The position numbers and the translations under genes were made by a program. DNA of 14,891 nt from Amoebophrya sp. AT5.2 (lineage: Eukaryota > Sar > Dinophyceae > Syndiniales > Amoebophryaceae): contig RXOD01005293.1 in NCBI GenBank assembly GCA_005223375.1, forward strand, positions 1-14,891, read 5' to 3'. Under the pieces are notes generated by a model. It worked only from the letters and a program-made list of their open reading frames with translations. It searched no databases and was not told the origin of the DNA. Within the stretch, counting starts at the first letter, position 1. Each line of letters begins with the position of its first letter. Positions 2,210 to 14,891 of the stretch are shown one piece after another.

Positions 2210-5200
2210 TCAGTAGTACCGCAGCGTGTCCCTGGTAGGGTCCATGAATTTGCGCACGACTTCGTCGTCGATTCCTTCCCTGTTCTGTTTGTGCTCGCCC
2301 ACGATCCGCTTCAGCTCGTCGATCAAAATCTGTTTTATCTCCCCCGTGGTCATGCGCCCGCTGCCGTATTCTTCCCCGATCCGCGCGTACTCCGCATCGT
2401 CCTCTAGCACGTAGCGCAAGTACTCGTATGGCACGTCCACCTCTAGGTTCGCGCCCTTCTCGCGGTGCTCCTCAAGCGTCAGTTACAAGCTAGTACAAAA
2501 CAATGCATTCTTTTTCTTAGATAGAATAGCAACATCTTTTGGCTGGAGGGAAAGGAGGAGGGGCGAGCCGTTGTGTGTGGGGGCAGGTGGATGCCGGGAG
2601 GGCGATAAATCGGGGCAGGAGTCAGGAGAAGAGGCATTCTGGAGTAGAGAGGAAAGATCGCTGGCTCATGGCTGCTGGAATCGACACGAGGGCAGCAGGA
2701 AAAGGAATCGACACGAGGACAGAACGGCTACTGCAGCCATCGACCGAGGCGCTATGGTTTTTCTCGGCGCTTCCAGGTACCAATCGCCCCCTGCTGTTGT
2801 CCTATACAATAGGCGCGCCCATAAAAACTCCCCCCACCCCTCCCACCACGCCAAATAAGGAGGATCGGCTCGTTCTGCATCGATGTATCAATCGATATTA
2901 TCGGATTCACTAGTCGGATGCATTTTTTTCATCAATTCGTAAGTCATCCCGCCCCCGGAAAGGGCGTACTTTTTTATCTTGTCCGCGATCTGCTTCTCGC
3001 TGTCCGTAACGAAGATCGTGGAGGGGGTCTCCGCGGAAGAGGACATCTTGGTGGTGTGGCCCTGGAGCGCAGGAAAAAACTTGGAGTGGATCAGCGCCGG
3101 CTTCTGCAAACCCAGCCGCGGAGCAATGTCGCGGGTTATCTGGTGATCGATGCGGTGGTCGAGTAGATTTTTATCATATAAATATGGCTATTAGATTAGA
3201 AGAAGCTGTTGATCTTGATGAAAACCACCGGTACATACTGGATCAGAAGATCTCGATCGCGGCGGGATCCCCCCCGCAGCAAAAAGAAAATCCATATCCA
3301 GACTGCGGACGGGATTGATTGAGTAAGTCAGTAATTGTACCCTGAAGAAGGGGTCCTGGTCTATCGCCTGCGGGATGAGGCAGCGCACGTCCGTTCTCCC
3401 GCCGAAGATGTGCGGGAAGGCTTCCGGGAAGCTGGGCGCCGCCTGCACGGCGGTGTAAAAGCACTTCCCGATGTTCGCGCTCTCGTTCAGGCCCAGCGCG
3501 CCCCGCACCTGGTTGAAGGTGATCTTCTTCGCGATCTTGCAGCACAGCGGGTACATGGTGCCCATGTAGTCGAAGTTGGTGAAAATGAAGGTTTTGTCCG
3601 GGTTGAACCCGCACGCGATGATGTCCTTTACATTCGCGTACGCGAGCCGGTGCGCCTCCTCCGCGGAGATGTTCTCCTTGAACAGCGACTTTTCGTCGTC
3701 CGTAAGCTGGATCACCAAAGGAACGTCGAAGGTGTCCTGCAACCACTTCGTGAAAAAAAAGGGCACCAGGTGACCTGTTGCCCGAGGTATTTGATGGAGC
3801 GATGGTCGGTCCGATGGATGGTCCGATGTTGGGGTGAATTTTATTACTATCGACTGAGCCGATTGATGGTGGGTGCCGAACCCAAATTGCTCAGTGCTAT
3901 CGGCCAAGGACTTTAGGACGCATCCTCTCGGCCGACAGCGGATCTCGGCGCGATGGATCTAGGACACCTCCGATAAGTACCTGCCATCGTCAACATTTCC
4001 ATCTGGGCTACATAGAAAAACGTAGGCGTGCTGGCGGGCAACGCGACAAGAATCGCGAAGATGCCATCTGGGCTACATAGCTTCTAGCGGTACCTATGTG
4101 CAGGCTTTCGCTGCTTGCTCCCCTTCCTGTGTACAGGTAGAAGGGGATTCCTTTTTCGTAGTTGTCCAGCAGCACGTCCAGGTCTCGGTGCGTGAAGAAC
4201 AACCCCCGTCGCAGAAACCGGTGTGGTTTTTTTCCCGTGAGCCGCTCGATGCGCTTCACCAAGTCCACGTCGATCTTGCTGCAGCCGAAGTCGCGGATCA
4301 GCTTTTCGTAGTCAATCCCCTGGTCCGCCTGCACGTCCACGGGGTTTATTACCTGCGACTCCTCCACCGGCTCGCACTCCTCCGGCAAAGGATGCAGTGG
4401 CCGGACCGCAGCCTCCGTTGCTGCGGGGGTAGAGTAGTTTGATCGAAGATCATCCGACGATCGCCATGTTCCGGGTGAGGAGCAGGAGATTGAATCCGTA
4501 TGCCAGAGAATGGGTATGGGAAAGGGAATGCCACCAAGGATGCGGGCCTATTAAACGGTCTACCATTTACGAAGCCGAATGCGACGAAGGACCACATCTA
4601 TAGATAGTAATATAGGTTGTACAAGAACTACCAAAACAAACAAGTGATACTGAAACTGATAGAAATATAAGTAGTAGTATAGGCACCCGTCTCCCCCTCC
4701 ACCGGACAGCAGGTGAGGGATATCTTCAGGGTCTGCTTTTCCTCGCTGAAGGTGAACTTGGTGAGTTCCACTTTCCCGATCAGAATCGTGCTCGCCAAAA
4801 TGCGGTTACTCTGGCAGTTCAGGTTCCAGTTTGGTAATCTGCACAGCCGCAGCGTGGTCACTGACTCCGGCACCGGGTACGAATCGTACATCGTGTCGCC
4901 GTATCTGTGGTCGCGATGAAGAATCGACTTCGATAGCATAGCTCATATGGCTATGATACTTAGGCATCAACTACGAGGCAATCCTGCCTCGAAAGCAACG
5001 AGAACGGCCTAACTCGGTATAATCGTTAATCGTCAGCAGGCCTCGGACGGCGATCCGATATCAAACATGGCTGATATCGGATTGCCGGCGACGCAATGTG
5101 CGATTCGTACCCGGTGACTCCGGCACCGGGTACGAATCGTACATCGTGTCGCCGCACCTGGTCGATCGATACGCTTCGTGTATGCTATCGAATCGATCAG

Positions 5201-5645
5201 ACACGCCGCTTCAACACTGCAATCCTGCCTCGACAGCAACGAGATGAAAGTCCTCGGTATATAGGTAAGTAGCCGTTGATCATCAGGCCTCGGACGCTGG
5301 TCCGATATCAAGCATGGCCTTCCTCGTGGCCGAGGCGGACGATAAAAAAGCAGTATGGTACAACTCCTCCGCCTTTTTTCTGTCCATTTCGAAGAGGTGG
5401 AAGGGTAGGTTTTCCGCGATTTTTTCGTTCACGAGGTCCTGCAGCTTCGCTTCGTGGCATTTTTCAAACTTCGCAATGGGACCGATCGTGATCGTGCCGC
5501 TGTGGACGCTCTCCTTGATCTGGTTCTGCACCGAGAGCGACGTGCGCCCGGTCTTTATGCGGAGCAGCTTCACCACGGCGCCCTTGAGGACGTGGAACGC
5601 CGAGTCCACGTAAATGGAGCGCGCGGCGGCGGGAGCGGCCGTCAT
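2210..5645 (-). CDS. WARS: Tryptophanyl-tRNA synthetase with N-terminal AlaX-like domain
   Basis: Cytosolic class I enzyme that charges tRNA-Trp. Proposed exons are 5645-5362, 4904-4687, 4420-4094, 3774-3341, 3139-2943 and 2477-2210; they join in frame to 575 residues. Exons 1-2 are an AlaX/AlaRS-editing-like domain ([60 protein letters not shown]). Exons 3-6 are the catalytic and anticodon-binding core: [18 protein letters not shown], then [13 protein letters not shown] (together the HIGH signature), [29 protein letters not shown], the KMSSS loop and [15 protein letters not shown]. Introns 5361-4905, 4093-3775 and 3340-3140 are GTAC...AG. Intron 2942-2478 is non-canonical. The link 4686-4421 (GTGCCT...CCCCCGCAG) is the least certain. 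It is supported by matching phase, by the lack of any other start for the core exons, and by the known AlaX-TrpRS fusion in apicomplexans. If that link is wrong, there are two adjacent genes: an AlaX-like protein ending at 4628 and TrpRS with an unseen start. Confidence 0.87.
2478..2942 (-). mobile_element. Introner-like element forming a non-canonical TrpRS intron
   Basis: TrpRS coding stops in a conserved stretch (SGGGMT) and resumes with [20 protein letters not shown]. Removing 465 bp restores the family's usual spacing (human SGGRDTIEEHR). No GT or AG can be placed at these edges. The cut instead falls in a 4-bp direct repeat, TGAC on the coding strand (plus-strand GTCA at 2943-2946 and 2478-2481), resembling a target-site duplication. 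The ends just inside are a degenerate inverted repeat (plus 2482-2509 against 2918-2942; shared TTAC...AAAA...AATGCAT, about 18 of 28 bases). No protein is encoded inside. It fits a DNA-transposon-like introner. Confidence 0.75.
3999..4080. repeat. 17-bp direct repeat pair in a TrpRS intron
   Basis: CCATCTGGGCTACATAG occurs twice on the plus strand, at 3999-4015 and 4064-4080, both inside the intron that splits the HIGH motif. The 65-bp offset suggests a partial tandem duplication or the scar of a small insertion. Confidence 0.85.
4864..5320. repeat. Local tandem duplication spanning a TrpRS exon-intron edge
   Basis: The first 40 or so coding bases of the second AlaX exon plus adjoining intron (about 4864-5066) are repeated about 250 bp away (5117-5312). 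Bases 4865-4901 and 5117-5153 are identical or nearly so, and 4975-5066 matches 5220-5312 with scattered changes. The copy therefore leaves a pseudo-exon ([13 protein letters not shown]) inside the 457-bp intron, preceded on the coding strand by CCAG. Using it would run to a stop after about 25 extra codons. Confidence 0.8.
5049..5153. repeat. Two abutting hairpins inside a TrpRS intron
   Basis: Hairpin 1 has 15-nt arms 5049-5063 and 5072-5086 (14 of 15 pairs) and an 8-nt loop. Hairpin 2 has 30-nt arms 5087-5116 and 5124-5153 (27 of 30 pairs) and a 7-nt loop. They touch with no gap. One arm of hairpin 2 is the pseudo-exon copy and the other is an inverted copy of the same exon edge, so that coding stretch exists three times within 300 bp. 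Confidence 0.85.
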
Positions 5646-5733
5646 GAGTATATCCGATAGAAAATGAAAGCAAAAACTCGAAATCAATGGGGTGTGGTCG
5701 CTTTTTACTGAACAGTAGAAAACTGCAGAGTGG
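5646..5733 (-). promoter_or_regulatory. 88-bp spacer between cysteine-rich gene A and TrpRS
   Basis: This is all that separates the stop of cysteine-rich gene A from the TrpRS start, so the A 3' end and the TrpRS leader must share it. Most of it is copied at about 11105-11191. No TATA box or poly(A) signal is evident. A spacer this short between same-strand genes would suit polycistronic transcription with trans-splicing, but that is inference. Confidence 0.4.
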
Positions 5734-8700
5734 TCAAAATGGAAAAATTTCTAGTGCGATACACGTTGTCGCACTCGCAGCGCTTTGAATCATGAAACAC
5801 GGCACGACAGATGAGTGGGATGACAAAAAAGTAGCAGCGGTCCTGGTCCCGGACCAGGCACAAGTACAGCAAAGTCCCGCGAAAAAGACTGGATCTTGTT
5901 GGTGGAACCTGAACCACGAATTTCATCATTATCACGATCACGAGGCGAATTTATTTGTCAAACAAGAGACTCGGATGGCCACAGGCAGCGCTGCGATGTT
6001 GTTGTTGACAGGGGCACGTCTATGACTGAATACAGCAGCGGCTGTTCGTTGCCTATAGCGTTTCGTAGTTGCGGACTTTTTGCTTTTTATTTTTTTGCGA
6101 TTATATTTTTTATATCCAGCATGCGCGGAGACGGGTCGAGTAGCATTTCTTCAATCCTGCGGCCCCCGGACAAATCAGTGCGCCGTTTTAAATGTATCCG
6201 CACTAACATGCTGCCAGCCGGGAAGCAACGTGTCCTTTTTTTTTAACATTCATTGCAGATGCAGTGTGCTTCTAGTTCAGACTTTGGTACAGGCGACGGT
6301 AAGTCTGCAGAACATAGCCCATCTCGGAAATCAACTATTGTGCAGCGACAACTGCGACAAGGCATTCTGGTTCTGTCCGTAAGGGTAAGACTGGGTAGCG
6401 TCATATTATCGGTACGGTCGGTAGCGCCGGCACAGCAGATGGATCTAGCAGAGGACGTTTTCTGCACTGGGTAAATGATATGGCTATCCAAGAAGTTGAA
6501 GTAGTACTGCAATGTAGTAGCTCGTCGGGGTCGATGGACAAGTAACGCGCACGAGAGTGCTAACGCGGAGAACAGCTTAAGTTTTGTCGATGTCGATCTG
6601 AAGCATAAATAAATTGCTGAATACTATGAATGTATAGTATTTGAGTGGTCCTAGCTTTGTTGATGTTCTTGTACACGCATTTTTATTGCTATAAACAAGA
6701 CACGCATTTTTATCGCTGGCGATCACGACACGCACAGTGTCTGTCACAGTGCTTGTTCCTATTAAGAGCGAACCTGTATGAGGTCGTGAGAGAAGGTTGC
6801 CTCTTTGTTCCATCAAGGAAGCGATGCTTGTTCCATCTGAATAGAACAATGTCTTTCCGTTCTTCACATTGTGGCTTGATAGATTATATATATTTTTTGT
6901 TGCAGTCAACGTTGAGCGCCCGTCCAATCCGAACTCCCCCATTTCCACTCATGCTAATCTGCCCGTGCCCGCGCAGACGGACTCGCCGCACCGGGCATGA
7001 TCCCGGATCATCACTAGACATTGATGAGAGCCGTACCCGCAAGCCACGCCGCGGCGGCCCCCTTGTAGTGAAGGGTCCGGTCCGTGCAATTCAGCCCGAA
7101 CTTTTTCGTTTCTTCGCGAAAGTCGCTACATTCATCGTACCCGGCCTCGGGGCAGCTGGTGCATCGATTCGTGCACGCAAAACCGAGACTTGTCCTCGAC
7201 GTAGCGAAACAGCCACGGCACGCCGAGCATTTGTCACTTTCCCCCGGTTGCGGTTTCGGCGTGAGCGCCGCCACAAACTTATAGGCTTCGAAAGACGCAC
7301 AGACAGCAACCGCTACTCAACTCCGGCTGATGTACAATTGCGACGCCTCTACCGAGACCGTCTGGCCAGGGACGACAACTAAGGATTGCTCTCTTTTTTC
7401 AACAACAGATATCTTGCTTTCGGGCTGCCCATCCGGACAGCTTGAGACGCGACGCGACATCACGGAAGACTCCATTCGGACCAACACCAACGCACTTGGC
7501 CACGCCTCAGTGGCTAAAGCGGCCTCCGGCAGCGCCACAGCCTGCGCATGTCCTTGCACTGAATAAAGGCATACGCACTAGTAAAACAACTCACCGAAAG
7601 CCAAACCACCCATAGGGACGGCATTCATTGGGCTGGGAAAGGAAGAAACGGCATGCCGCCGATACCCTGAACGATGAAAAACTACAGTCCACACTCCAGT
7701 CGAAAACGAAGAATATGCCTGTGCGTCTTCAAGGTTGTTGAATGTTCATAATGCAGCCGAGGCACTGTGCATCACTAACAAAGTCCGGGTCGGCCGGATC
7801 TGACGAACCCCCTGGCACGAGGGGATCGACGTAGAAGAAGTTCTGTTGGTCGGTGCTCGCCGGGAAAGACCATTCTTTTCGTCCGACGAGCCAGTTGGCC
7901 TTGTGAGCAGTACTTGACAGGATGGTATTGCTCACGTAGCACTTTTCGCGGAAGCAATGGTCGAAGGATTGGTGGGGGGCAAATTTCTCGCAAGCATGAG
8001 TCCAGCTGCAGCCGTCGGCCGCGCAAAATTCATGACAATCCAAATCTTCCCCGTCCTGCTGACGACTGAGACACAGGCGGCAGCTTAAGCAATCTTCTTT
8101 GGCCGCGAGCCATACCAAAAAATTACAGGCCTCGACGAGGTACGCACAAACTGCTTCGAGTGTCGACAGCCGCTGATTTGCAATCCCGACGCCTACAACG
8201 AGACCGACTGGCCGCGGACGAGAGCTCAAGGCTGGCCTCGTGTTTTTCCAACACGGGCTTTGGCTTCGGCCTACTAGTCCGGACAGCGCAACACGCGACG
8301 CGACATCACGCAAGAGCCCACTCGGCTTCATCCAGGGGGCCAGCGCGCTTGCTCATGCCTGGGCGGCTGAATCGGTCTGCGGCAGGGCTTCGACCTCAGC
8401 ATGTCCTTGTGCCGGAACGCATGCTAAGATTAAAGAAGTAACTCACCAAGTGGAACCAGAAGAGGGGCGAAGAGGGGCTGGGAAATGAAGAGACGGCGCG
8501 TCGGCGTCCTTCTACCGTACTACTTTTATTTGTTTTATACATGATCACTGGGGAAAAAGCTACAGGTAGCGGCCAAGAACGGGGACCACAGGTGTGTGCG
8601 ACTTCGAGGAGGATGCTGAATGAAAATTTTCATGATGCAGGGTAGGCAATGCGTAGTCTCGTCCACATCCGCGCACCCCGCCTTCTGCCCTTCTTGGTGG

Positions 8701-8915
8701 AAGGATGCGCTCCGGGCTTCCACTTCGTACCCGTCACCGGGTCCGTTGTTGACGTCCTCCTCGTCGGTCTTGTCCGTGAACTCGGTGAATTCGCCCAGGC
8801 CGTTGGCAAACTTCTTCTCGCCCGGCGAAGGGGGCTGCAGTGCGACACCGACCCCGACCCCGCTACCCAGTCCCACGATAGCCTGGAAGGCGAAGGCGGT
8901 CTTCCGCGCGCGCAT
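5734..8915 (-). CDS. Secreted cysteine-rich modular protein, paralogue A
   Basis: Unknown family. Exons 8915-8635, 8116-7751, 7272-7037 and 5888-5734 join in frame to 345 residues. The chosen ATG starts a signal peptide (MRARKTAFAFQAIVGLGSGV, then GVGVALQ); an in-frame ATG at 8924 is the alternative. After an acidic linker (GEFTEFTDKTDEEDV) come two cysteine modules. Module 1 has EDCLSCRLCLSRQQ...DCHEFC...CSWTHAC...KANWLVGRK; module 2 has DKCSACRGCFATS...CTNRCTSC...AAAAWLAG. Each module is introduced by CL[PG]C-M, and introns 8634-8117 and 7750-7273 fall inside that Met codon without GT-AG ends. Intron 7036-5889 is GTAC...CAG. The C-terminal exon (FFAGLCCTCAWSGTRT ... TCIALEIFPF) is almost identical in paralogue B. 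A secreted or surface role is inferred from signal and cysteines. Additional exons in the 1.1-kb intron cannot be excluded. Confidence 0.68.
5889..7036 (-). other. Long GTAC-AG intron of paralogue A, conserved with paralogue B
   Basis: 1148 bp between WLAG and the C-terminal exon. The donor is CGG|GTACGG and the acceptor ATCCAG|TC. It aligns with 11344-12628 over most of its length at high identity but with many indels that are not multiples of three, and frames open in one copy (for example PCRSCRC near 6380) are stopped in the other, so I read it as non-coding. Minor features are a repeated ACACGCATTTTTAT near 6671 and 6700 and AT-rich tracts at 6080-6115. No RNA gene is recognisable. Confidence 0.5.
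7273..7750 (-). mobile_element. Introner-like intron, copy 2
   Basis: This 478-bp non-GT-AG intron lies between modules 1 and 2 of paralogue A, at CLGC|M-AAL. Coding-strand edges are TGCAT / TATGAACATT and AAGTTTGT / GGCGGCG. An inverted repeat sits just inside the ends: plus 7286-7305 against 7716-7734, about 17 of 20 bases (CTTGAAGACGCACAGGCA type). It aligns along its length with 12880-13397. Confidence 0.72.
8117..8634 (-). mobile_element. Introner-like intron, copy 1 (absent from paralogue B)
   Basis: This 518-bp segment interrupts CLPC|M-VW in paralogue A. The coding-strand edges are CCCTGCAT / CATGAAAATT at the 5' side and AATTTTTT / GGTATGGCTC at the 3' side. Paralogue B reads CCCTGCATGGTATGGCTC with no interruption, so excision here restores the uninterrupted site exactly. 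The 5' edge begins a 14-bp palindrome (ATGAAAATTTTCAT). The sequence is related to introns 7273-7750 and 12880-13397 but is clearly the most divergent of the three. Confidence 0.75.
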
Positions 8916-8924
8916 GTTGGTCAT

Positions 8925-9745
8925 CTTCACCTGGGTGTCACTTCGAGTGGTGAACCTGGAGCTGAGTACTCGCTTTTTTGCCAATGAGCAGTCTCTTAGG
9001 GTCAGCGTGCGTTCGCGTTCCTCTGATTCTGCGTCTTCTGTTTTTAAGTCTCGGTGATCTCTCTGAGTCTCGATTCTCTGCACCTTTCCGACTTTCCAAA
9101 AAAACGCATCAGCTGCTCTTCTTGGTTTCGCGCGGATTCCGATACATCGCATGCACAAAAGTCGCGTTCGGTTTCGGACGCCCGTTCCCAATTTAGCCAG
9201 TACAGAAGCAGGAAGTACAACAGTATACGTATCTTAATGCGAATGCGCGTAGATCGTTTCGCAGCTAGCAACCCCACCCCACGAAAAATTCTTTTGGGTC
9301 CCTTCTTGTTCTTACCAGGAACGATCCCAACCCCCTGACAGTCAGACTAAACGCACAAATCTCCGACCGAAAATTCTTGGAACGGATGCGGACGCCCATG
9401 CGCACGATGTTATCACTGATTGACAGATTACGATTCAGATTCCTCCCTACTTCAATTTTTGGCCCCTAGCCGGCGTCCGTCGCGGACATACCGCTTGCCC
9501 CGCGGAACAAGACGTGCTTCTGTGCTCTGTCTTCAGTCTGTTTTTTCCGATGTCTTCATCTAAAGAACCAAGCGCAAGAGGAAGGTCCTGCCACAAAGTT
9601 CTCACAGTGGAAGTGTGATGCTGGGTAATTCCTACTGCTGCGTGAGAACCAAAACGGACCGAAGCGCCAGTGGGGGTGCAAAGTGACGAGGGGACCGATA
9701 TGGGACACCGCAGCAACCAAGCTGCGAACAATTATGACGACTACT
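8925..9745 (-). promoter_or_regulatory. Upstream region of paralogue A
   Basis: This 820-bp stretch lies 5' of the signal-peptide start and aligns with 14093-14866 at roughly 85-90% by eye. Frames open in one copy are broken by indels in the other (a 1-bp indel near 9553-9560), so most of it is probably non-coding. Close to the start the frame stays open in both copies and differs by 6 and 60 bp, so a longer N-terminus or a small 5' intron is possible. No TATA box was recognised. Confidence 0.4.
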
Positions 9746-10053
9746 AGCGAAGATGTTCGTGTATTCATCCGGGTGTCTTTCCAGCCTTCGCAATGGTCTG
9801 CGCAGTCCAACCAATCCACCACTGCCCGGTCGTTCCAACCAATCCACCCCGTCGCTCCAGCACGTCGATCAAAGTGTTCGCCCGCCGTCCGGCCCTTCGG
9901 CTTCATGCGGTAGCGGCCGACGTCCAGCTACCACAAGAATGAGTTCTCCCCAAGAACGTCGTTCTCCCCAAGAACGTCGTTCCCAGGAACCGCCAGTCGA
10001 CGTCATTCTTGGGGGGGATGAGGAGCGGCTCCGCAGTCCGAAAAATTCCTGCT
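9746..10053. other. Paralogue-A-side insert with short repeats, no gene recognised
   Basis: This is the left part of about 750 bp (9746-10495) that is present here but missing at the matching point near 14867. TCCAACCAATCCACC occurs at 9806-9820 and 9834-9848. A diverged copy of 9810-9836 recurs at 10246-10273. I see no convincing coding sequence. Confidence 0.4.
9943..9990. repeat. 18-bp tandem repeat
   Basis: GTTCTCCCCAAGAACGTC occurs at 9943-9960 and 9961-9978 with a partial third unit starting at 9979. The unit is a multiple of three; on the minus strand it would encode a repeating ERRSWG. Each unit contains a short inverted repeat (GTTCT...AGAAC). Confidence 0.9.
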
Positions 10054-10356
10054 TCATTTTAGCGTCCGACGTTCTTCGTGCTGCTTGGCGAAGAAAGGCT
10101 GCTCATGGTCCTCGGGGTGCGCGAGAATGAGCAGCGTCTCCTCGTCGCCACGGAGCTCCGAGGTCACCTTGGCTGAGCTGCACATAAGTCGCCTCTGCTT
10201 GTCCCAACCGCTGCTTCGTCCTCCAGCATTTACTCTCTCCCCCAGATCAATCCGCCACTGCCCAGTCGTTTCCCCGACGCTCCGGCACGACCGGCGCCCA
10301 TCCTTCGTCATCCCTATGCAACTGCTAGCTCGTTGTAATCCATAGGTTCCATACAT
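10054..10356 (-). CDS. Short ORF with weak PIG-L de-acetylase-like motif
   Basis: Open frame of about 100 codons on the minus strand. Its C-terminal third reads ELRGDEETLLILAHPEDHEQ followed by PFFA, recalling the N-terminal metal-binding motif of PIG-L N-acetylglucosaminyl deacetylases (LL..AHPDDE..FF). Here the second Asp is Glu and a His precedes the final Glu. The frame ends 13 residues later, so this could be one exon, a pseudogene fragment or chance. It lies in the segment found only on the paralogue A side. Confidence 0.2.
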   Translation of the reverse strand: MYGTYGLQRASSCIGMTKDGRRSCRSVGETTGQWRIDLGERVNAGGRSSGWDKQRRLMCSSAKVTSELRGDEETLLILAHPEDHEQPFFAKQHEERRTLK

Positions 10357-10365
10357 AACATTTGC

Positions 10366-10572
10366 TCATCTTGCTACTTCAACAGTCAACGCTGTCTTGG
10401 TCGGATTTTTGACAGTGGCACTCCGGGGTCCGGACGATGGCTCTGGTCCGGGCGCCACTCCCGTTTCTTTTTCCGGTTTTGGCGTCGGGCCCGGTTTCGG
10501 CGTCGCTTCCGTTTTCATTTCCGGTCCCACCGGCGACGGACGCGGTTCAAGCTGTTCTCCGGTCTTTTTCTC
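10366..10572 (-). CDS. Lys/Pro-rich exon or small ORF
   Basis: A 68-codon open stretch following TAG, a possible acceptor AG, and ending at TGA 10368-10366. The sequence is low-complexity and Pro/Lys/Glu-rich (MKTEATPKPGPTPKPEKETG, then VAPGPEPSSGP), typical of stalk or linker regions of surface proteins. The same sequence restarts at the right window edge (14891-14867) but is broken there after ATP, so it belongs to the duplicated unit. No start codon is obvious apart from an internal Met; it is probably an internal or terminal exon of an unresolved gene. Confidence 0.4.
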   Translation of the reverse strand, partial: EKKTGEQLEPRPSPVGPEMKTEATPKPGPTPKPEKETGVAPGPEPSSGPRSATVKNPTKTALTVEVAR

Positions 10573-10587
10573 CTACTTGTTCCAAAG

Positions 10588-10650
10588 CATCTGTGAGCGG
10601 TTGAAGTCCAACGCATCCATTCGAAGGCCCCATCTGTGAGCGTTTGAAGT
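10588..10650. repeat. 20-bp direct repeat pair
   Basis: CATCTGTGAGCGGTTGAAGT at 10588-10607 and CATCTGTGAGCGTTTGAAGT at 10631-10650 differ at one base. They lie between the Lys/Pro-rich exon and the 103-aa ORF. Confidence 0.85.
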
Positions 10651-10766
10651 TAGTGACGAGGATCTCATGATCCTTGGAAACAGGCAGGACGACACGCTAA
10701 CGCACAAACTGAGAAATCAAGACAACCCATAGCATACGATATAGACAGGAGACGCGCCACTGCTTA

Positions 10767-11078
10767 TTAGTCATCATCATCGTCGCGGTAGTGGTGACGG
10801 AGTCGCATTTTTGCTTCTTGTCGGTTCACGGAAACACAAGTGCGGAACGAGTACAGCCAGAGCATGCTGGGGCACGCACGCAACAACTTTGCAGGACGTC
10901 GGACGGATGTACGCATCACGAGAGCTGCGAAGGCAAGCGAACAGCTTCTTTCACAATGGAACAAGAGGATCCAGCGGAGCAAAAGGACAGGAATGCCATT
11001 TGGGCGACAGGCCGTCTTGCCTCTGCTCTGCGGGAAACAGCGAAACAGCCGCACTGCAAAATTTGTTTCTGCCGTCAT
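10767..11078 (-). CDS. Orphan 103-aa ORF starting in a copied TrpRS leader
   Basis: The ATG at 11078 and codons ATGACGGC, with the leader upstream, match the TrpRS start (5645) and its leader. After Met-Thr-Ala the sequence diverges completely. The product is basic and Arg/Leu/Cys-containing, has no recognisable domain and ends in five Asp residues. It is located downstream of paralogue B exactly as TrpRS is downstream of paralogue A. It could be a new gene using a captured start, or an untranslated remnant. Confidence 0.3.
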   Translation of the reverse strand: MTAETNFAVRLFRCFPQSRGKTACRPNGIPVLLLRWILLFHCERSCSLAFAALVMRTSVRRPAKLLRACPSMLWLYSFRTCVSVNRQEAKMRLRHHYRDDDDD

Positions 11079-11137
11079 GATGGTATCTATAGAAAATGAA
11101 AGCGGCCGTCATGATGGTATCTATAGAAAATGAAAGC
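11071..11137. repeat. 34-bp tandem duplication at the segmental-duplication edge
   Basis: Two near-perfect units, 11071-11104 and 11105-11137, each containing GCCGTCATGATGGTATCTAT and AGAAAATGAAAGC. Both are related to 5638-5671 around the TrpRS start. Each unit carries a minus-strand ATGACGGC start context, so there are two candidate starts; the upstream one continues in a different frame. Confidence 0.9.
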
Positions 11138-11191
11138 AAAAACTCGAAATCAATGGGGTGTCGCTTTTTACAACAGCAGAAAACTGCAGAG

Positions 11192-14092
11192 TCAAAATGG
11201 AAAAATTTCTAGTGCGATACACGTTGTCGCACTCGCAGCGCTTTGAATCATGAAACACGGCACGACAGAGTGGGATGACAAAAAAGTGGCAGCGGTCCTG
11301 GTCCCGGACCAGGCACAAGTACAGCAAAGTCCCGTGAAAATCACTGCCGTCGGGATCAGGATCACTCTTGTTAGTTCCTTCCTAGGTAGTACTACGACCA
11401 GATCTTCTTGGTGGAACCTGAACCACGAATTTCATCATTATCACGACGCGAATCAATTTATTTGTCAAACAAGAGACTCGGATGGCCACGGGTAGTGCTG
11501 CGATGTTGTTGTTGACCGGGGCACGTCTATGACTGAATACAGCAGCGGCTGTTCGTTGCCTATAGCGTTTCCTATTTGCCGGATTTTATTCTTTTTTATA
11601 AATATCCAGCCTGCGCGGCGGGTCGAGTAGCATTTCTTCAATCCTGCGGCCCCCGGAAAAATCAGTGCGTTGTTTTAAATGTATCCGCACTAACATGCTG
11701 CCAGCAGGGAAGCACCTTCTCCTTTTAAATTCACTGCAGATGCAGGGTGCTTCTAGTGCGACGAAAGACTTTGGTACAGGCTTCTTACGAAGTACGCGTG
11801 TTGGCTCAGTCTCAGGCATCTTCGCCTAAGGGCTGGTGATAGATACGGCATCGAAGGCCAAATAAGTCTACAACACAGGGCCCACTTCGGAAATCAACTA
11901 CAACTGAAACACGATCGTGCAGCGACGACCGCGACAAGGCACTCTGGTTCTGTCCGTAACGGTAAGACTAAGTAGCGTCATATCGGCACGGTCGGTGGCG
12001 CCGGCAGCGGCACAGCACCAGCAGATGGATCTACTAGAGAACGTTTTCTGCACTGAGTAATCATATGGCTATCCAAGAAGTTGAAGTAGTAGTAGTACTG
12101 CAATGTGATAGCTCGTCGGGGTCGATAGACAAGTAACGCGCACGAGAGTGCTAACGCGGAGAACAGGAGAACAGTTTTGTCGATCTGATTCTGAAGCATA
12201 AATATAAATAAAAAAATAAGTAAATGAATCCTGTACTGTAGTATTTGAGTGGTTTTAAGCTTTGTTCATGTTGCACACGCATTTTTTATTGTGCTCAGGT
12301 CGCTGGTATTCAGTGCTGAACTGGCGATCACGACACGCACAGTCACAGTCACAGTGCTTGCTCCTACTACGAGCGAACCCGACGTCGTAAGAGAAGGCTG
12401 CGTCTTTGTTCCATCAAGCGATGTCTTCCATCTTCCGAATAGAACGATGTCTTCCACTTCCCGTGTGGCTTGATTATACAAATATTTTTTGTTGCAATCT
12501 ATCACAACGCTGAGCGCCCGTCCAGTCCAAACTCCCGCATTTCCACTAATCTGCCCGTGCCCGCGCAGACAGACTCGCCGCACTGGGCATGATCCCGGAT
12601 CACCACTAGATATTGATGAGAGCCGTACCCGCAAGCCACGCCGCGGCGGCCCCCTTGTACTTGAGGGTCCCCTCGAGGCAGTTGGGCGAGAAGTTTTGCG
12701 CGTTGAAAATACCTGTGTAAGTAGTAAAAATCTTGGCACATGCTGTGAACCCGTCGGAGCACTTGCTGCATGAAGAGCTGCAGTTCTCGAGACCCGTAGC
12801 GAAACAGAGGCGGCATGAAAAGCAAGTGTCACGGCCGTCAGTCATCGTCGGCCCACCCGGAGGCGGCATGAGCGCCGTCAAAAAATTATGGGCCTCGAAA
12901 TACGCACAAACTGCTACTGCTACTCAACTCTGGCTGATTTACTCTTTGCGACGCCTCTACCGAGACCGACTGGCCACGGACGAGAACTGAGCATTGCTCT
13001 CCTTTTTCAACAACACACATCTTGATTTCGGGCTGCTCATCCGGACAGCTTAAGATGCGACGCGACATCAGACAAGACCCCATTCGGCCTGATCCATGCG
13101 GGCCAACACCAACGCACGTGCCCATGCCTTAGTGGCTGAAGCGGTCTGCGGCAGCGCCACAACCTGCGCACGTCCTTGCACCGACAGACAAACGCACTAA
13201 GAAAGGAGCTCACCAAAAGCCACAAGACCCATTCCCATAGGGACGGTATCCCATTCGTCGAGCTGGGAAATGAAGAAACGGCATGCCGTCCAAGAATGCC
13301 GATACTACATCACTGGGCAGAAAACTACAGTCCATACTGCAGACAGTCGAAAGCGAAGAATATGCCTGCGCGTCTTCAAGGTTGTTAAATCTTCATAATG
13401 CAGCTGAGGCACTGCGCATCACCAACCGTTCGCTTCTTCTCCGATGAAGCCATTGCCTGGAGGGCGAGGCCGTTCGGTTCGACTTCGACGGCGCTCGCGA
13501 ACGCAGGGGCCATCCATAATTGATCTTTTCGGCCGAGGAGCCAGTTGGCCTTGTCAGCAAGACGCGGCAGGGGGGTGAAGAGGGTGCTAACGCTCGTGTA
13601 GCACCTTTCGGGGAAGCAATTTTCCGCTTTATTTTTTCGTGCAAATATCGAGCAGGCTGTCGCCCAGGCGTTGTTCTTGCTTCCGGTCCAGTCGCAGGCG
13701 TCGGCCTCGCACGAGGCATCACATTCGTCCTCGATCTGCTGACGCCCGAGACACAGCCGGCAGGCAGAGCAACCCTCTCCTTTGTCCGCGAGCCATACCA
13801 TGCAGGGTAGGCAATCGTGATACTCGTCCACCTTCACATTTGCCGGGCATAGCGCCTTCTTCATTTCTTGGTGGAAGGATGCGCTCCGGGCTTGCAATTC
13901 GTACCCGTCCCCGGGTCCGTTGTCGACGTCCTCCTCGACGGTCTTGTCCGTGAACTCGGTGAATTCGCCCTCCGCGTCGTTGGCAAACTTCTTCTCGCCC
14001 GGGGAGGGGGACTGCAGTGCGACGCCGACCCCGACCCCGCTACCCAGTACCACGATAGCCTGGAGGGCAAAGGCGGTCTTCCGTGCGCGCAT
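11192..14092 (-). CDS. Secreted cysteine-rich modular protein, paralogue B
   Basis: Paralogue of the gene at 5734-8915, with unknown function. Exons 14092-13398, 12879-12629 and 11343-11192 join in frame to 365 residues. Signal peptide MRARKTAFALQAIVVLGSGV (then GVGVALQ) is followed by an acidic linker and module 1 (GCSACRLCLGRQQ, CDASCEADACDW, CFPERCY, DKANWLLGRK). Module 2 has DTCFSCRLCFATG, CSSSCSKC and AAAAWLAG. The first CLPC|M junction has no intron here. The second (13397-12880) has the non-GT-AG introner-like intron. The last intron 12628-11344 is GTAC...GGCAG. The C-terminal exon differs from paralogue A by one codon deletion and a few substitutions, whereas module 1 is strongly diverged. 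The start was chosen for the signal peptide; the frame is open further upstream. Extra exons in the last intron are not excluded. Confidence 0.68.
11344..12628 (-). other. Long GTAC-AG intron of paralogue B
   Basis: 1285-bp counterpart of 5889-7036. It carries extra segments relative to that copy, including about 75 bp near 11780-11860 and about 70 bp near 11345-11415. The latter contains an AACTAAC branch-point-like sequence before GGCAG. No RNA gene or conserved reading frame was recognised. Confidence 0.45.
12880..13397 (-). mobile_element. Introner-like intron, copy 3
   Basis: This 518-bp intron of paralogue B lies at CLSC|M-TAL. Coding-strand edges are TGCAT / TATGAAGATT and AATTTTTT / GACGGCG, matching copies 1 and 2 at both ends. 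Excision joins the reading frame exactly. It is very similar to copy 2 and less similar to copy 1. Confidence 0.72.
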
Positions 14093-14866
14093 GTTTGGCG
14101 ATGAGTAGTCTCTCAGGGTCAGTGTGCGTTCCTCTGATTCCGCGTTTCTGATTTCGCGTCTTCGGTTAAGTCTCGGTGATTCGTATGAGTCTCGATTCTC
14201 TACACCTTTCAGACCTTCCAAAAAAACTTGCAGCTGATCTTCTTGGTTTCGCGCGGATTCCGATACATCTCAGGCACAAAATTCACGCTCGGTTTCGGAC
14301 GCCCGTTCCCAATTTAGCCAGCACAGAAGCAGGAAGTACAACGGTATACGTATCTTAATGCGAATGCACGTAGATCTTTTTGTAGCTAGCAGCCCCGCCC
14401 CACGAAAAATTCTTTTGTGTCCCTTCTTGTCATATATTACGAGAAGTGATCCCAACCCCCTGACAGTCAGACTAAACGCACAAATCTCCGACGGAAAATT
14501 CTTGGAACGGATGCGGACGCCCATGCGCACGATGTTATCACTGATTGACAGATTACGATTCAGATTCCTCCCTACTTCAATTTTTGGCCCCTAGCCGGCG
14601 TTCGTCGCGGAAATATCGCTTGCCCCGCGGAACAAGAGGAGCTTCTGTGCTCTGTCTTCAGTCTGTTTTTTCCGACGTTTTCTCTAACGAACCAAGCGCG
14701 AGAGGATGGTCCTGCAACAAAGTTCTCCCACTGAGGGTGTGATGCTGGGTAATTCCTACTGCTGCGCGAGAACCAAAACGGACTGAAGCGCCAGTGGGGG
14801 TGCAAAGTGACGAGGAGACCGATACGGGACACCGGAACAACGAAGCTGCGAACAATTATGACGACT
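14093..14866 (-). promoter_or_regulatory. Upstream region of paralogue B
   Basis: Counterpart of 8925-9745, aligned from the signal-peptide start to the junction near 14867. Well conserved blocks include about 14445-14600. No gene is supported, because a frameshift relative to the other copy breaks the longest shared frame. Confidence 0.4.
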
Positions 14867-14891
14867 AATTCGGCGTCGCTTCCGTTTTCAT
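14867..14891 (-). pseudogene. Truncated start of the Lys/Pro-rich exon at the window edge
   Basis: The last bases match 10496-10518 (minus strand MKTEATP), then switch to upstream-region sequence and hit a stop two codons later. Relative to the other copy, about 750 bp are missing at this junction. Confidence 0.6.

Follow-up and report, generated by a model that had tools for sequence, protein, structure and literature searches.

A stretch of 14,891 nt of Amoebophrya sp. AT5.2 (contig RXOD01005293.1; contig C1497 in the assembly searched), referred to below as the window, carries a gene of tryptophanyl-tRNA synthetase (TrpRS) and two neighbouring genes, A and B, encoding related cysteine-rich proteins of secreted appearance. 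Three related segments interrupt the coding sequences of A and B: c1 (518 nt) and c2 (478 nt) at sites 1 and 2 of gene A, and c3 (518 nt) at site 2 of gene B, all on the minus strand, while gene B is uninterrupted at site 1 (Table 1). A preliminary description of this DNA presented the segments as a family of non-canonical introns with an empty site in one paralogue; their positions and relatedness are borne out by our measurements of length, Kimura two-parameter (K2P) distance and BLASTN similarity. The questions considered here are how the segments are excised, where the copies came from, and whether gene B lost an intron or gene A gained one.

The empty site of gene B reads CTGCATGGTATGG, identical to gene A without c1, and in the global alignment of A and B the difference is a single gap of 518 columns, as the preliminary description had expected from excision of c1. 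By position, each of the three segments splits an ATG codon as AT/G directly after a CLxC motif, also in agreement with that description. The natural joined sequence in B fixes the borders of c1 to within one base: two registers, shifted by one T, are compatible with it (CA..TT or TC..TT), and neither of them is GT-AG. The borders of c2 and c3, which would likewise be non-GT-AG, are deduced from homology and reading frame. Of the edges formerly proposed as common to the copies, the start TGCAT/YATGAA is present in all three, whereas the TTTTT end is found in c1 and c3 and not in c2, which ends with GTTTGT. When the exon frame is read on into the segments, 10, 5 and 8 stops are met in c1, c2 and c3, respectively, and gene A would be readable only after splicing of both c1 and c2.

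Possibly, the non-GT-AG borders are a misreading of conventional GT-AG introns, with part of each segment being coding. In an enumeration covering donors from -30 to +59 and acceptors from -120 to +30 relative to the borders, 13 combinations in c1, 4 in c2 and 6 in c3 were stop-free and frame-keeping, the usable ones of c1 adding a net 3 to 58 residues, which weighs against the non-GT-AG interpretation. At least the last 15 codons are open and encode similar residues in all three segments, and a donor-like GGTGAGY is present in the middle of each. However, none of the stop-free combinations in the scanned range yields CLxCM. All those of c2 and c3 remove the CLxC motif, which is present in the uninterrupted domain 1 of B, and all those of c1 replace the methionine by IMKIFIQHPPR..., residues that are absent from B. 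In addition, the donor positions differ between c1 and c2/c3, and the empty site of B coincides with the non-GT-AG borders. Domain 1 of B, CLPCMVWL, is paralleled by CLGCMAAL and CLSCMTAL, which result from non-GT-AG excision at site 2. Because GT-AG options either drop CLxC (c2, c3) or add residues that B lacks (c1), and because domain 1 of B agrees with the excised site 2, non-GT-AG introns appear to be the better reading of the three segments, as had been claimed in the preliminary description, and conventional introns with misread borders are a rather improbable alternative.

The open 3′ ends of the segments (last 45 nt: 8117-8161 in c1, 7273-7317 in c2 and 12880-12924 in c3) are translated in the downstream exon frame as VCAYLVEACNFL, VCASFEAYKFV and VCAYFEAHNFL, with one 3-nt indel, and may represent an alternative exon extension. 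The donor-like GGTGAGY is accompanied in all three by an acceptor-like YTCTTCMTTTCCCAG (8442-8493 in c1, the same columns in c2 and c3). An internal coding exon between these motifs was rejected because the enclosed lengths (31, 38 and 49 nt, counted by hand) differ modulo 3. A search of the whole window against Rfam (E<=1) gave no match to group I or group II introns or to other RNAs inside the introns. No match to the U1 snRNA model (RF00003) was obtained either, but control genomes gave none, which makes this result uninformative.

The excision of such introns could be assisted by base pairing near both of their ends, which would juxtapose the splice sites. The duplex energy of the terminal 45 nt is significant against shuffled sequences in all three introns (p 0.003 for c1, 0.0075 for c2 and 0.0025 for c3), and that of the terminal 30 nt in c3 (p 0.002) and c2 (p 0.02), while the two GT-AG introns of TrpRS show no end pairing at any length (p 0.28-0.97). 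In minimum-energy folds of full length, 9 end-to-end pairs are formed in c1, 17 in c2, 21 in c3 and 6 in the non-GT-AG intron 3 of TrpRS, as compared to none in each of the two GT-AG introns of TrpRS and an importin-alpha intron. A common stem joins alignment columns 26-43 with 523-544; it is inset by 16 nt (c2, c3) or 25 nt (c1) from the 5′ end and by 13 nt from the 3′ end, and 14 of its 18 pairs are kept in all three sequences. The corresponding inverted repeat is significant in c2 (11/11, or 13/14; p 0.004) and, in gapped form, in c1 (p 0.0055). Several results speak against a role of this pairing: the terminal 15 nt are non-significant (p 0.47-0.54), and so are the terminal 30 nt of c1 (p 0.29); c3, when aligned strictly as an inverted repeat, gives p 0.38 (0.002 with G-U pairs in 30-nt ends); and each of the remaining 4 of the 18 stem pairs is broken in one sequence, none being altered on both sides. 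Covariation contributes a slightly unfavourable term (+0.38) to the whole fold, three sequences being insufficient to prove a structure. It is nevertheless probable that the splice sites are brought close to each other by pairing near the intron ends.

As judged from the self-BLASTN of the window and from sliding identity, genes A and B lie in the two blocks of a tandem segmental duplication, and therefore c2 and c3 are one intron copied with its gene rather than two insertions. With c1 set aside, the indels between A and B are multiples of 3 in 9/9 cases in exons 1 and 2, in 2/7 in intron 2 and in 2/6 in the 5′ flank. Two other regions tell against this measure: the indels of exon 3 are of 12, 7 and 4 nt (1/3 multiples of 3) and those of the 3′ flank are multiples of 3 in 14/29 cases, so that the indel-frame measure is weak. 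All 22 cysteines stand in shared alignment columns, and 150 of the 269 other aligned residues (56%) are identical. Both genes look functional by these signs. It is very improbable that c1 is a plain insertion which broke gene A and left it a pseudogene: the 10 stops of c1 would fit this, but exons 2 and 3 of A downstream of c1 are still open, the cysteines common to A and B have been kept despite the divergence elsewhere, and c2 and c3 also hold stops, c3 being carried by B.

The exons of the two paralogues differ in the rate of their divergence. Nucleotide identity between A and B is 0.689 in exon 2 and 0.651 in exon 3, as compared to 0.842 in intron 2, 0.912 in the 5′ flank, 0.845-0.917 in the 3′ flank and 0.889 in exon 1; exons 2 and 3 (7014-8116; 12606-13800) thus diverge faster than the intron and the flanks. 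The differences are spread evenly over codon positions (39/39/39 in exon 2, 27/26/28 in exon 3), and the ratios of nonsynonymous to synonymous divergence (dN/dS, Nei-Gojobori method, NG86) are 1.14 (0.453/0.398) in exon 2, 1.25 (0.463/0.370) in exon 3 and 0.83 (0.119/0.143) in exon 1. In codons of identical residues, four-fold sites differ at 10/36 positions in exons 2 and 3 without the C-terminal tail, at 0/11 in the tail and at 5/40 in exon 1; the cysteine codons are unchanged in 22/22 cases. This pattern is reminiscent of diversifying selection on a surface or secreted protein rich in disulphides. A similar pattern is known from venom gene families. A perfect match of 23 bp between 10496-10518 and 14869-14891, the latter at the right edge of the window, suggests that the duplication continues past this edge and that the B block carries a deletion.

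No relatives of the Cys-rich protein that could help to order the events were found: protein searches (E<=1) returned one cluster of two member sequences, which is the window's own unspliced frame, no Pfam family was matched at E<=1, and no further paralogue was detected in the assembly at E<=0.001, two weaker rows (E 0.38 and 0.77) lying on other contigs. The intron copies are therefore without an outgroup for rooting. Over 454 ungapped columns, the K2P distances are 0.445 (c1-c2), 0.369 (c1-c3) and 0.182 (c2-c3), so that c1 is the most diverged copy, as noted in the preliminary description, at 2.0-2.4 times the c2-c3 distance; in 1000/1000 bootstraps, c2 and c3 are closest to each other. In BLASTN against the whole assembly, c3 matches c2 with E 3.8e-119 and c1 with E 1.8e-35 over 299 of 518 positions. 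Private changes number 97 in c1, 40 in c2 and 20 in c3, and c1 is not nested with c2, agreeing with it against c3 at 20 sites and with c3 against c2 at 40.

A point added beyond the preliminary description is that the protein itself is repeated internally, with the intron at equivalent places. In gene B, CLPC-M...CRLC extends past site 1 and CLSC-M...CRLC past site 2, and the intron occupies the same codon in both Cys-rich repeats. Scores of domain 1 against domain 2 exceed 1000/1000 shuffles in all four comparisons (z 4.2-6.1), and the Jukes-Cantor distances of the exons are 0.60-0.82 between the domains and 0.32 and 0.54 between A and B within a domain. Nucleotide identity of the domains is 0.54 in A (A1/A2) and 0.588 in B (B1/B2), the means of codon-shuffled sequences being 0.41-0.43 and their maxima 0.571 and 0.531. 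By these distances, c1 looks like an older sister of c2/c3 that stems from the domain duplication. Of the comparison of the copy tree with the gene duplication, which the preliminary description had called for, the c2/c3 part matches the A/B duplication, while c1 would branch deeper in a tree that is unrooted. Several points stand against the greater age of c1. In a three-sequence tree it presupposes that rates are similar and that c2 and c3 have not been homogenised by gene conversion, which would make c1 seem older, and the private changes of c2 are 40 as compared to 20 in c3. The domain distances nearly overlap (0.60 for B1-B2, 0.54 for A2-B2), and the A1-A2 identity lies below the codon-shuffled maximum of 0.571, the nucleotide signal being weak alone.

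A wider, dispersed family, for which the preliminary description had proposed a genome-wide search, was not supported. The assembly searched comprises 50.7 Mb in 2759 contigs, and the match counts are lower bounds. DNA searches with c3, c1 and c2 returned at least 3, 5 and 4 rows, respectively, all within the gene pair (those for c1 and c2 include short ones of E 1-2 inside the same copies), and the pattern of the most conserved block matched three times in the assembly, in c1, c2 and c3. In 214,891 bases, comprising the window and the initial 10 kb of each of contigs C1-C20 (out of 2759), a sequence profile built on the 187 positions at the 3′ end found the three copies and nothing else. A dispersed or mobile intron family was rejected on these DNA, pattern and profile searches. 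In the 214,891 bases, 87 inverted-repeat pairs were counted, as compared to 16-35 in five block shuffles; a 4-nt direct repeat beside them was not enriched (12/87 vs. 1/16 to 5/27 in the shuffles). Because the direct repeats show no excess, the genome gives no sign of a recent introner burst in this sample, which is too small to exclude introner families like those of A120. Self-BLAST of the 20 contig pieces gave 9 hits, one of which (47 nt) links two contigs, the others being palindromes or repeats confined to single pieces.

The copies, the empty site and the domain repeat can be joined into one history, which we hold as a whole to be moderately probable: the segments would be introns of the non-GT-AG type seen in Amoebophrya A25/A120, passed on by duplication and not spread by transposition, and B would later have lost its copy of c1. 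An ancestral gene of a secreted-looking Cys-rich protein would have contained one such intron within the ATG codon after CLxC. Intragenic duplication of the Cys-rich domain with this intron would have produced the ancestor of c1 and that of c2/c3, and tandem duplication of the whole gene with its flanks would have given rise to A and B and, with them, to c2 and c3. Gene B would then have lost the c1 copy, with both splice borders exactly respected; recombination with spliced cDNA is a plausible route. The preliminary description had left loss in B and gain in A as alternatives. As no copies are found outside the gene pair and c1 does not group with c2, and since c1 could stem from intragenic duplication, given that both repeated domains carry the intron at equivalent positions, loss is favoured; that B lost intron 1 is rather probable, and a gain of c1 in A is less likely.

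Such a gain would require that an element of the introner type, either similar to a DNA transposon or reverse-spliced, inserted at CTGCAT in domain 1 of gene A once A and B had been duplicated, its source being a diverged relative of c2/c3. In Amoebophrya A25/A120, introners whose borders are not GT-AG have been described (PMC7789003), CTGCAT occurs only twice in the spliced coding sequence of each gene, exactly at the two intron sites, and the inner inverted repeats of c1 and c2 are significant. We nevertheless regard a gain as unlikely, since no copy was found in the assembly beyond the gene pair, the direct repeat at the borders is limited to one T, c1 is not nested with c2, and the domain repeat already accounts for the shared position. 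Quite unlikely, too, is a targeted, homing-like introner confined to one fast-evolving gene family, that is, a CTGCAT-recognising non-GT-AG element that moves between homologous CLxC-M domains, domain 1 of A having been re-colonised from a domain-2-type intron after the gene duplication. The restriction of CTGCAT to the two sites counts against inheritance by duplication, as a targeted element would also hit the same place in both domains.

Further points weigh against the proposed history. Loss mediated by cDNA that keeps a downstream intron is not the usual pattern, and the assemblies of A25 and A120 are above 100 Mb. The 50.7-Mb assembly may be incomplete, so that a donor copy may be missing from it. 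The assembly of Amoebophrya Kv is given as 127 Mb, and both AT5 and Kv are reported with GT-AG introns.

Table 1. Features of the window. Positions are those of the window; a slash marks a border between exon and putative intron; coordinates of the stem arms were converted by hand.
Feature	Positions	Strand	Remarks
Gene A exon 1	8635..8915	-	signal-like N-terminus through CLPC, last bases CTGCAT; open frame; 88.9% nucleotide identity with B
Putative intron c1, gene A site 1	8117..8634	-	CTGCAT/CATGAA...TTTTTT/GGTATGG; exact 518-nt gap vs. B; 10 in-frame stops
Gene A exon 2	7751..8116	-	first Cys-rich domain, MVWLAAKEDC...; A/B indels multiples of 3 in 7/7; every Cys column-matched to B
Putative intron c2, gene A site 2	7273..7750	-	CTGCAT/TATGAA...GTTTGT/GGCGGCG; 84% identity to c3, equivalent place in duplicated block; 2/7 indels multiples of 3
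Gene A exon 3	7014..7272	-	second Cys-rich domain and hydrophobic C-terminus; open frame, B homologue
Gene B exon 1+2	13398..14092	-	uninterrupted at site 1, CTGCAT/GG between 13801 and 13800
Putative intron c3, gene B site 2	12880..13397	-	CTGCAT/TATGAA...TTTTTT/GACGGCG
Gene B last exon	12606..12879	-	second Cys-rich domain, C-terminus
Duplicated block with gene A	5634..9743	.	window self-BLASTN, sliding identity
Duplicated block with gene B	11101..14867	.	window self-BLASTN, sliding identity
c2 inner stem 5′ arm	7717..7734	-	holds AAGACGCACAG, 11 nt perfectly complementary to 3′ arm
c2 inner stem 3′ arm	7286..7304	-	holds CTGTGCGTCTT
TrpRS GT-AG introns (two)	4093-3775, 3340-3140		
TrpRS intron 3, non-GT-AG	2478..2942	-	GGGATGAC/TTACGAATTG...CTTGTAACTGAC/GCTTGAG; TGAC direct repeat at borders

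Another gene of the window that appears to contain a non-GT-AG intron indicates the lineage of the host. Among the best 120 of 6149 matches, the protein of the joined TrpRS exons is most similar to that of Amoebophrya sp. A120 (86% identity over 99%), the next best match reaching 79% and Perkinsus marinus 65%; judging by this one protein, the host is a relative of A120 and probably distinct from that strain. Excision of intron 3 of TrpRS would yield SGGGMTLEEH, the A120 counterpart being SGGGQTLEEH. This intron has weak inverted repeats (p 0.03), its end pairing is at p 0.23-0.38, and a search for relatives of it as a possible introner gave one partial match (70% over 144 query bases, contig C679). 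Region 4862-5318, which by eye looks like a TrpRS intron, contains a 69-bp palindrome (5086-5154) and a direct repeat of about 200 bp (4862-5071, 5115-5318), of which part of the adjacent exon seems to be a component; on the palindrome, the Rfam search of the whole window gave two miRNA-like hits below the cut-offs (5088-5156). The 3′ terminus of the TrpRS coding sequence recurs, as a 41-bp repeat (88%; 1714-1754 and 2208-2248), some 500 bp farther downstream of this gene.

The locus offers a within-genome case where the direction of change, loss or gain of an intron, can be argued: an intron common to internal repeats and to tandem paralogues is absent once, and exactly. It also suggests that some such introns may outlast one duplication after another instead of having been inserted recently. 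Among the open-licence articles of PubMed Central listed in our searches, none reported that paralogues in Amoebophrya had gained or lost introns of this kind. For A25/A120 orthologues, novel gain and ancestral loss are stated to be indistinguishable by Farhat et al. 2021 (PMC7789003), and in PMC9860276, which deals with introners across eukaryotes, Amoebophrya has one mention, in the reference list.

Like the introners that are derived from DNA transposons in various eukaryotes (PMC9860276), the segments are related introns at different sites, accompanied by an empty site. Unlike them, c1-c3 lack a target-site duplication and any significant repeat within their outermost 15 nt, no other copies came up in the searches described above, and duplication suffices to explain the copies found, a DNA-transposon introner being unnecessary on the present sequences. 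With the nonconventional introns of euglenids (PMC4770533), they share variable borders, a predicted RNA structure joining the ends and the presence of an intron in only one of several related sequences, in euglenids in one of several strains. End pairing is attributed to those introns and to the introners of Amoebophrya alike (PMC7789003; PMC4770533). However, the host is unrelated, and the pairing of positions +4..+6 with -8..-6, characteristic of euglenids, is absent: +4..+6 is GAA in all three segments and -8..-6 is AAT, AAG and AAT in c1, c2 and c3, which are non-complementary, also in the register shifted by one T.

Introner elements make up 11% of the non-canonical introns in A25 and 30% in A120, and are marked by inverted repeats of 8-20 nt and direct repeats of 3-5 nt (PMC7789003). 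The segments resemble them in part, by an inverted repeat near the ends that is 11 nt long and perfect in c2. They differ in that this repeat lies 13-25 nt inside, that no dispersed copies are present in the assembly, and that each border pair of c1, c2 and c3 shares one T instead of a direct repeat of 3-5 nt, such as the TGAC at intron 3 of TrpRS. As the direct repeat and the dispersed copies are lacking and the inverted repeat gives a mixed picture, c1-c3 are not classed as introner elements.

The closest likeness is to the non-canonical introns of Amoebophrya A25 and A120 in general, which account for more than 60% of introns in these strains (PMC7789003). Their mean length in A120 is 240 nt, unlike the predicted 478-518 nt of c1-c3, and 98.6% of the introns whose position is conserved between A25 and A120 are canonical, whereas c1-c3, if inherited as proposed, would have outlived two duplications. 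The host is related, the borders are variable and not GT-AG, complementary stretches lie near both ends, and both types of introns are mixed within a gene, as in TrpRS here. By lineage and borders, c1-c3 thus conform to the non-canonical introns of the A25/A120 type, as far as their predicted borders indicate.

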